Assembly (NCBI RefSeq): GCF_000243155.2
Contig: NC_018017.1
Location: 2,542,001 to 2,606,000, forward strand
Direction: 5' to 3'
Length of the DNA stretch: 64,000 nt
Origin: Desulfitobacterium dehalogenans ATCC 51507
Lineage (GTDB): Bacteria > Bacillota > Desulfitobacteriia > Desulfitobacteriales > Desulfitobacteriaceae
This document shows positions 16,630 to 47,680 of the stretch, in pieces. How positions within the stretch are numbered: the first letter of the stretch is position 1; each line of letters starts with the position of its first letter. Under the pieces are notes generated by a model, which saw only the letters and a list, made by a program, of their open reading frames with translations, did not search any database and was not told where the DNA came from. Position numbers and translations under genes: made by a program.

Positions 16630-16728
16630 GGCATATCAGACTCACATACGGCTTAAGCTACGCTTACGGGTCCTTTTAGCTTAAACATCCTGGAAAGATA
16701 CTGGAACAGACACTTGAAAAACCACTCA

Positions 16729-17024
16729 AGGATTTTCCTTTAAGGCAAAGAACGGATTCTAAGCGAGCAGGTAAGCAATCTTCGCAAAAAGACTGCAGCG
16801 GAGTCGGGTTGGAAACAGGACGTTTCCAACCGGCTATGAGAACAAGTGCGAAAGCAGTGCTTTCGAGGAGCCGATTTTAGCCACGAAACCCGGGTGAGGG
16901 TTTCGCCCAAGCCGCCACGCCACAGAGATTACTTAGCGGCGCAGGTGCACCCGACGCAGCGGAGGTCTTGAGCGATTAGATTACTCCGCGCAGCCTATGG
17001 AGTGAACGCCGAAAGCAAAATCCT
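16729..17024. repeat. Structured dispersed repeat, copy A (296 bp)
   Basis: Copy A of a dispersed element. Its ends are near-complementary 13-mers (AGGATTTTCCTTT / AAAGCAAAATCCT). Inside are nested long-range pairs and four local hairpins: GGTTGGAAAC/GTTTCCAACC, CGGCT...AGCCG with inner CGAAAGCA/TGCTTTCG, CGAAACCC/GGGTTTCG, and GCCGC/GCGGC. It shares most of its sequence with the copy at 47379-47649, and its right third with 43811-43893. I find no convincing ORF in it. It lies in the gap between the psp operon terminator and the rubredoxin gene. Confidence 0.85.
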
Positions 17025-17040
17025 GGAGAATTAGCTCACA

Positions 17041-43751: not shown

Positions 43752-43810
43752 TAGCGAAGATAAGGGGATTCGAACCCACGACCTCTTATATGCGAAGCAA
43801 GCGCTCTCTC
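43752..43810 (-). other. tRNA-like fragment
   Basis: The minus strand reads GAGCGCTTGCTTCGCATATAA and then GTGGGTTCGAATCCCC, which resemble the D-stem end, an anticodon arm (CGC in the loop) and T-loop of a tRNA-Ala. The T-stem is mispaired outside GGG/CCC, the anticodon stem has two flaws, and no 5' acceptor half is seen. So it is a tRNA relic, not a gene. Repeat copy C begins just beside it. Confidence 0.5.
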
Positions 43811-43893
43811 CACGCAGCGAAGGTCTTGAGCGATTAGATTGCTCCACGAAGCTTATGGAGTGAACGCCGAAAGCAAAATCCTGGAGAATCAGG
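43811..43893. repeat. Structured repeat, copy C (right third only)
   Basis: 83 bp nearly equal to the right end of copies A and B: GCAGCG-A-AGGTCTTGAG, GATTAGATTGCTCC and the terminal AAAGCAAAATCCT, then GGAGAATCAG as in B. The left part is missing and the tRNA-like fragment takes its place. Confidence 0.8.
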
Positions 43894-46822: not shown

Positions 46823-46951
46823 GATATTTTATCACTCTCCCTCTACAAACGCAAATATAAGTAGATATTAAAATAATTCCTTTAAATTATTTCTCTTCTT
46901 TCGAAAACTTATCCTCTCTGATAGAGTAAAGTCTTAATCAAATAATTTTCT

Positions 46952-47006
46952 CCATGCCGCTGCCACAGCACCGACAGAGAATGAAAAAGCTATCCGGGTC
47001 GTGTAG
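46952..47006. repeat. Repeat tail module, third copy
   Basis: CCATGCCGCTGCCACAGCACC...GAATGAAAAAGCTATCCGGGTCGTG resembles the modules at 17041-17114 and 47275-47347. The stretch 47007-47274 between has an 11-bp inverted repeat (GCTTTCTTAAC 47052-47062 / GTTAAGAAAGC 47114-47124), with no gene seen. Confidence 0.55.
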
Positions 47007-47274
47007 CTTTACGCACAGTGCTCACTCAGTAGCTCCGGGGCAGGTCAACCCGCTTTCTTAACTGCTCCGCCAAACCTTAGGGCAATACCTGATGTGAACC
47101 ATGGCTACGCAATGTTAAGAAAGCCTCGTTAACCCGACCGCCCTTCCGCTTAAAGAAAGCTTGGCTTATGGTGAGTGAAGCGAAGCAGAAGCCTTAGCTG
47201 CCTTATACACAGTGAAAATCCTTCGCTCTTGTGCATAAAGCTACGCTTCCAGGTCTTTGTTGACTCTGCTTTGG

Positions 47275-47347
47275 GGTCTTTTTCAGAGTAATCGACCATA
47301 CCGCGGGATAGCACCAGCAGAGATGAACGCTTGATCCAGGTCGGGTA
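47275..47347. repeat. Repeat tail module, upstream of copy B
   Basis: GGTCTTTTTCAGAG, CCATACCGCGGGATAGCACCAG, GATCCAGGTCGGGTAG. Similar to the module that follows copy A, but here it is ahead of copy B. Confidence 0.6.
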
Positions 47348-47378
47348 GCTGCGCCGCTCAAGCCCGAAAGGTAGCCCA

Positions 47379-47649
47379 AGGATTTTGCTTTAAGGCAGAG
47401 AACGGATTCTAAGCGAGCAGGTAAGCAATCTTCGCGAAAAGACTGTAGCGGAGTCGGGTTGGAAACAGGACGTTTCCAACCGCCCATTGAGCAGGAGCGA
47501 TTTGGGCACGAAACCCGGGCGAGGGTTTCGCCCAAGCCGCCATGCCACAGAGACTGCTTAGCGGCGCAGGTGGACCCGACGCAGCGGAGGTCTTGAGTGA
47601 TTAGATTGCTCCGCGCAGCTTATAGAGTGAACGCCGAAAGCAAAATCCT
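47379..47649. repeat. Structured dispersed repeat, copy B (271 bp)
   Basis: Terminal complement AGGATTTTGCTTT / AAAGCAAAATCCT (47379-47391, 47637-47649). Nested inner pairs in order: TAAGC/GCTTA, AGCAATCT/AGATTGCT, AAGAC/GTCTT, GTCGGG/CCCGAC. Core hairpins: GGTTGGAAAC/GTTTCCAACC, GCCCA/TGGGC, CGAAACCC/GGGTTTCG, GCCGC/GCGGC. The second hairpin differs in sequence and length from copy A but pairs in both. No credible ORF. Confidence 0.85.
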
Positions 47650-47680
47650 GGAGAATCAGCTTTCGAGCCTTTTTCAGAGC

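Follow-up and report, generated by a model that had tools for sequence, protein, structure and literature searches.

The question raised by this locus is what kind of element keeps a long series of nested, mutually complementary segments in more than one place of a genome. Within the 64,000-nucleotide stretch of Desulfitobacterium dehalogenans ATCC 51507 DNA that was analysed (the window; contig positions 2,542,001–2,606,000), two such copies, A and B, had been noticed in an initial annotation, which proposed either a MITE-like mobile element or a structured RNA. The two need not exclude each other: occurrence at new sites points to a mobile repeat, and GGA loops and covarying stems are signs of an RNA product. 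We read the sequence best as a mobile repeat, scattered through the genome and non-autonomous, that would carry as its conserved payload an RNA with two predicted CsrA sites.

The presence of both copies of the element, here named E, was reproduced by the covariance model R1, which defines their boundaries and was trained solely on relatives and other copies. Copy A spans 16726–17030 on the + strand (159.9 bits, E 9.5e-43) and copy B spans 47376–47655 on the + strand (189.6 bits, E 6.6e-51; 131.2 bits with model R2). A third, partial copy containing only the 3' half of E is located at 43812–43892 on the + strand and shares 93.8% identity with B across 81 bp. The segment adjoining it (43760–43812) resembles by eye a tRNA fragment with T-arm and anticodon region on the minus strand; ARAGORN predicts no tRNA anywhere in the window.

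Element E folds as one long interrupted helix; a 13-bp terminal stem closes it, and its tip bears a pair of neighbouring GGA-loop hairpins. Both copies fold better than their shuffled counterparts (z of -5.4 for B and -2.6 for A). The complementary terminal 13-mers described at the outset do pair, though imperfectly, with one mismatch in A and one bulge in B. The nested pairs reported for copy B exist as well: covariation bears out AGCAATCT/AGATTGCT, AAGAC/GTCTT, GTCGGG/CCCGAC and the terminal stem, and TAAGC/GCTTA is almost invariant in the close set. Alignment A1 covers four genera with 21 members, all lacking the inserted module, and has 59 pairs; changes on both sides have occurred in 26 of them, including 10 of the 13 pairs of the terminal stem. 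Double-change cells number 85 in A1 against 21.1 +/- 3.5 in shuffles, and 96.6% of the pairing is kept, a value that falls to 30–45% when the partner is slid by 1–3 columns. With remote members added (alignment A2), double changes affect 51 of the 59 pairs and fill 510 cells where shuffles give 152, a result biased toward structure because A2 was fitted to the model. We take the covariation as decisive, and the earlier suggestion of selection on structure is strongly supported by it. Paired positions of A1 contain 67 G-U against 3 A-C, an excess that favours the + strand as the folding strand; in the broader alignment the excess is gone outside the 3' hairpin (31 against 28).

Hairpin 1 of copy A (16809–16829, + strand) consists of TTGGAAAC, an AGGAC loop and GTTTCCAA; it corresponds to conserved helix 7, and its GGA is invariant in A1. 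Judged by its sequence, this loop is CsrA-like. Hairpin 1 of copy B (47459–47479, + strand) has the same AGGAC loop, with GGA at 47468–47470. Hairpin 2 of copy B (47482–47507, + strand) is closed by GCCCA/TGGGC, as first described, and has GGA at 47494–47496; it corresponds to helix 8, which covaries with three pairs changed on both sides. For copy A, the CGGCT/AGCCG stem first assigned to hairpin 2 is a local alternative pairing, and the pairing supported by the family, through the covariation of helix 8, is GGCTA/TAGCC (16832–16836/16878–16882). Copy A carries module M and, in addition, a hairpin inserted in the loop of hairpin 2 (16832–16882, + strand), and inspection of this loop reveals that GGA is kept at 16867–16869 despite the insertion. 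In Desulfosporosinus (L038 at 1497–1769, L187 and L176), a folded insert of about 50 nt (GGTCGCC...GGCGAC) is present in a hairpin loop just before the kept GGA, so that insertion of a hairpin into such loops is seen twice, independently.

To our knowledge, the function of the TwoAYGGAY RNA family has had no explanation since 2010. Sequence and structure place element E in this family (RF01731, clan CL00106), of which it is a divergent, high-copy branch, a member by descent though below the curated score. RF01731 has no match in the window at gathering or relaxed thresholds, up to E 10, and none across the whole D. dehalogenans genome. A blastn homologue of copy B (L041) scores 48.8 bits against the RF01731 cut-off of 43; other scores in related genomes are 44.8 bits for the second copy at L037 and 37.3 bits at L035. 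Conversely, R1, built from A1, recovers RF01731 loci within the bacterial family with E values of 1e-7 to 1e-18, and R2 does so for four of the six RF01731 loci taken from other families of Bacillota (E 6e-21 to 1.5e-4), the best match to a distant locus reaching 81 bits (E 6e-21) and including the terminal stem. Because homologues score above the cut-off and our models recover RF01731 loci, membership by descent follows; the initial view that no named family fits is not upheld, and a new RNA family is ruled out by the same homology. In copies A and B, too, two hairpins with an AYGGAY-like loop lie side by side, GGA being present in both loops of each. RF01731 itself was found in 51 of 398 Bacillota genomes sampled, frequently in multiple copies. 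What is new here is a branch that RF01731 misses, that is high in copy number, that has been gained at new sites and that usually occurs in divergent pairs.

Copy B is situated in a composite of about 700 bp which starts near 46950. From an alignment of 28 units of the same genome, its order is half Q, U, Q, linker, E and a TTTTTCAGAG tail (46950–47676, + strand; edges approximate). Element U (47003–47244, minus strand), the divergent partner of E, also belongs to the family and runs on the strand opposite to E; it has a terminal stem GTAGCTTTACGCACA/TGTGCATAAAGCTAC and retains the terminal and middle stems but neither GGA hairpin. Next to copy B, U contains an insertion, and there the R1 match is weak (46996–47248, minus strand, 12.1 bits, E 0.041); U reaches 36–44 bits (E 4e-9 to 4e-11) in several other copies of the genome and scores lower in many others. 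The start of U lies upstream of E in 33 of 44 copies of this genome, most of which end a composite of 370–830 bp. In Desulfosporosinus and others, the place of U is taken by a second true TwoAYGGAY member, with the 5' ends facing each other about 40–300 bp apart. Module M (47508–47571, + strand) is a dispensable structured insert which is missing in many copies, has no match in Rfam and also occurs by itself, as a repeat of 64 bp, in related genomes (L042–L049). The lone module lies within a longer conserved context that resembles another unannotated structured RNA. Q (47275–47325 and 46950–46990 in the window) is a GTAG-headed, REP-like hairpin with an imperfect palindrome, present between and at the ends of units.

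The genome-wide search for copies that had been proposed places the element at no fewer than 68 distinct sites of the 4,321,753-bp single-contig genome, A and B included, a lower bound obtained by pooling searches that used the complete element, parts of it or the covariance model, each of which scored a limited number of candidates. The family is present in other genera of the bacterial family too: it was found in G002 and G003 (same genus), G009, G010, G017 and g6 (Desulfosporosinus), and a hairpin pattern search finds relatives in Desulfosporosinus and in Bacillota/Clostridiales MAGs. Plasmid, phage and viral collections contained no matching copy, and among the titles retrieved on Desulfitobacterium repeats none dealt with repeats of this kind. 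At the site of copy B, the segment 46917–47712 is missing from G003 (103 bp between the flanks), as well as from G001 and G002, which have unrelated sequence in its place. In G002 the A site shows 11 bp between the terminator and sequence that, in D. dehalogenans, is about 500 bp away from the terminator. Copies A and B have therefore been gained at new sites since the related species split, which means that the repeat moves. Loss in relatives instead of gain is possible for the A site, and less so for the B site, where three relatives are without the copy.

Other sites are common to D. dehalogenans (G000) and G002 or G003. Copies within the genome have a median best identity of 96% to another copy, and orthologous sites hold different subfamilies; at four shared sites, the G002 copies are closer to non-orthologous D. 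dehalogenans copies than to the orthologue, as replacement or conversion would predict. At the orthologous sites L133/L063, L134/L026, L135/L064 and L138/L079 of two species, the subfamilies differ, with and without module M. The subfamily mismatch at orthologous sites suggests that copies have been converted, or replaced repeatedly, where they stand.

Each of the 44 copies examined lies between genes: 29 between co-directional, 13 between convergent and two between divergent ones, the neighbouring genes being called by ORF length only. For copies A and B, a consensus scan of E and of the interval separating it from U detected nothing promoter-like. Either promoter avoidance or a need for read-through would account for the depletion between divergent genes. 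It is conceivable that such copies are ordinary cis-regulatory leaders or 3'UTR structures of adjacent genes, a reading with which their intergenic location near genes and the 'Cis-reg' type given to RF01731 by Rfam would agree. However, no preference for the upstream sense orientation is seen (14 sense and 15 antisense relative to co-directional neighbours, with 13 copies convergent), and sites are gained and lost between species, which makes this explanation quite unlikely.

A more serious competitor is a purely parasitic non-autonomous DNA element of the MITE or BOX kind, in which the fold would serve single-stranded DNA transposition, the RNA would have no role and GGA would be a recombinase recognition site. 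High copy number, the modular nesting of M and of hairpins, insertion polymorphism and near-absence between divergent genes are all in keeping with it; pneumococcal BOX repeats are also commonest between convergent genes (PMC3049150). Terminal inverted repeats are present as well, in the 13-bp terminal stem of E and the 15-bp stem of U, yet these stems vary in sequence with pairing kept, while the ends recognized by a transposase are fixed. The target duplication and matching transposase expected of a MITE were both sought, and neither was found among the units and loci analysed. Across 33 units, the longest words shared by the flanks are no longer for true than for mismatched pairs (6.03 against 6.09), a comparison blind to duplications of 2–4 bp, and no flanking repeat above chance was detected; none of the loci retrieved contains a transposase-bearing copy. 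The D. dehalogenans genome has no intact RAYT, and the loops match a known RNA–protein site and track csrA. We consider a purely parasitic element possible, though not probable. Mobilisation of a REP/BIME-type repeat by a RAYT (TnpA-REP) through Q, suggested by the GTAG head and imperfect palindrome of this hairpin, is very improbable: IS200-type tnpA is present in the genome only in interrupted form, neither Q nor other element-like repeats lie beside the RAYT-like genes found in G001 and G002, and G003 has elements and no Y1 transposase. With no repeat-flanked RAYT gene found, this reading was set aside as unsupported.

The loops themselves resemble sites bound by CsrA, an RNA-binding regulator. 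In A2, GGA is kept in 37 of 38 copies of hairpin 1 and in all 37 of hairpin 2, and seven of the eight stem pairs of hairpin 1 have changed on both sides while the loop stays fixed. The loop form seen most often, ACA(R)GGAYGU, agrees with RUACARGGAUGU, the consensus obtained for CsrA by SELEX, whose ACA and GGA do not vary (PMC7652899). Hairpins of L151 and L154 read GUACAGGGAUGU, an exact RUACARGGAUGU; copies B and A carry ACAGGACGU, a GGA hairpin loop with flanking ACA...GU, and the ACAGGAC loop of branch E1 is one base shorter than the consensus. Binding of CsrA to TwoAYGGAY has been suggested before from motif matching (PMC4333381). The csrA gene (PF02599) is present in the D. dehalogenans genome. 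Among 35 genomes of the bacterial family with at least 90% completeness, elements are present in 26 of 29 csrA-positive and one of six csrA-negative genomes (Fisher p 9.5e-4, which ignores shared ancestry); 26 genomes have both, one the element only (G064), three csrA only (G011, G015 and G027) and five neither. Shared ancestry and the loss of motility both confound this association.

In three Desulfosporosinus genomes (G033, G065 and G067), a member lies within a flgL-(yviE)-fliW-csrA operon, where it immediately follows flgL and is antisense to the operon genes (L228 1013–1232, minus strand; L229 2759–2983, + strand; L230 2980–3199, + strand), with yviE also between flgL and fliW-csrA in two of them. 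The flagellar gene names were assigned by eye from translations and csrA by PF02599. The three occurrences may represent one event through shared ancestry, and no element is present at the flgL-fliW-csrA operon of D. dehalogenans.

Taken as a whole, we regard as moderately probable the explanation that element E is a divergent high-copy TwoAYGGAY branch, a non-autonomous repeat which is transcribed by read-through and whose RNA binds a CsrA dimer. Such a repeat would spread non-autonomously, and transcripts running on from adjacent genes would produce its RNA, whose two GGA hairpins would occupy the two sites of the CsrA dimer, each transcript offering one docking or decoy site. The divergent-pair layout places one member in the sense orientation whichever side a transcript enters from. 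Several observations speak against this explanation: copies A and B gave no promoter-like site in the consensus scan, the copies show no bias toward sense over antisense of co-directional neighbours, and in the D. dehalogenans genome one of the two strands is without a CsrA site because U has lost its GGA hairpins. That the payload acts as a CsrA decoy, selfish or domesticated, with dozens of predicted sites per genome and a divergent pairing by which read-through from both directions would tend to yield a functional strand, is a tentative idea that we think somewhat unlikely; if true, Bacillota would gain a distributed counterpart of single CsrB-type sRNA genes, and mobile repeats might titrate CsrA in these Gram-positives instead of a single sRNA gene. 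The branch described here, which tracks csrA across the bacterial family with its loops fixed and its stems rewritten, shows that TwoAYGGAY can take the form of a scattered repeat that multiplies and acquires insertions particular to a lineage, and RF01731 overlooks whole genomes of members. The older CsrA hypothesis for TwoAYGGAY becomes directly testable in a non-pathogenic anaerobe.

Compared with known systems, element E shares with TwoAYGGAY RNA the two adjacent GGA-loop hairpins, the long interrupted helix, the same stem order and a multi-copy occurrence that extends to other Bacillota. It differs in that the D. dehalogenans copies escape RF01731, number at least 68, bear inserted modules and mostly pair with a U devoid of GGA hairpins. 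CsrA-sequestering sRNAs of the CsrB/CsrC/RsmY/RsmZ type likewise have several GGA-loop hairpins per RNA, and CsrA binding is predicted for E. However, E has only two sites per copy and many genomic copies, is not a gammaproteobacterial sRNA gene, and has no promoter or terminator of its own that could be found; we know of no homology between them. The REP/BIME repeats of RAYT transposases are also intergenic palindromes in a mosaic, and Q is headed by GTAG, but E is far longer and its genome is without an intact RAYT. Pneumococcal BOX (boxA-boxB-boxC) is similarly dispersed, modular, intergenic and strongly folded, with a dispensable middle module and no transposase of its own (PMC3049150). 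This likeness is one of features; BOX has a target duplication, none being detected for E, whereas E has conserved protein-site loops that are maintained across genera.
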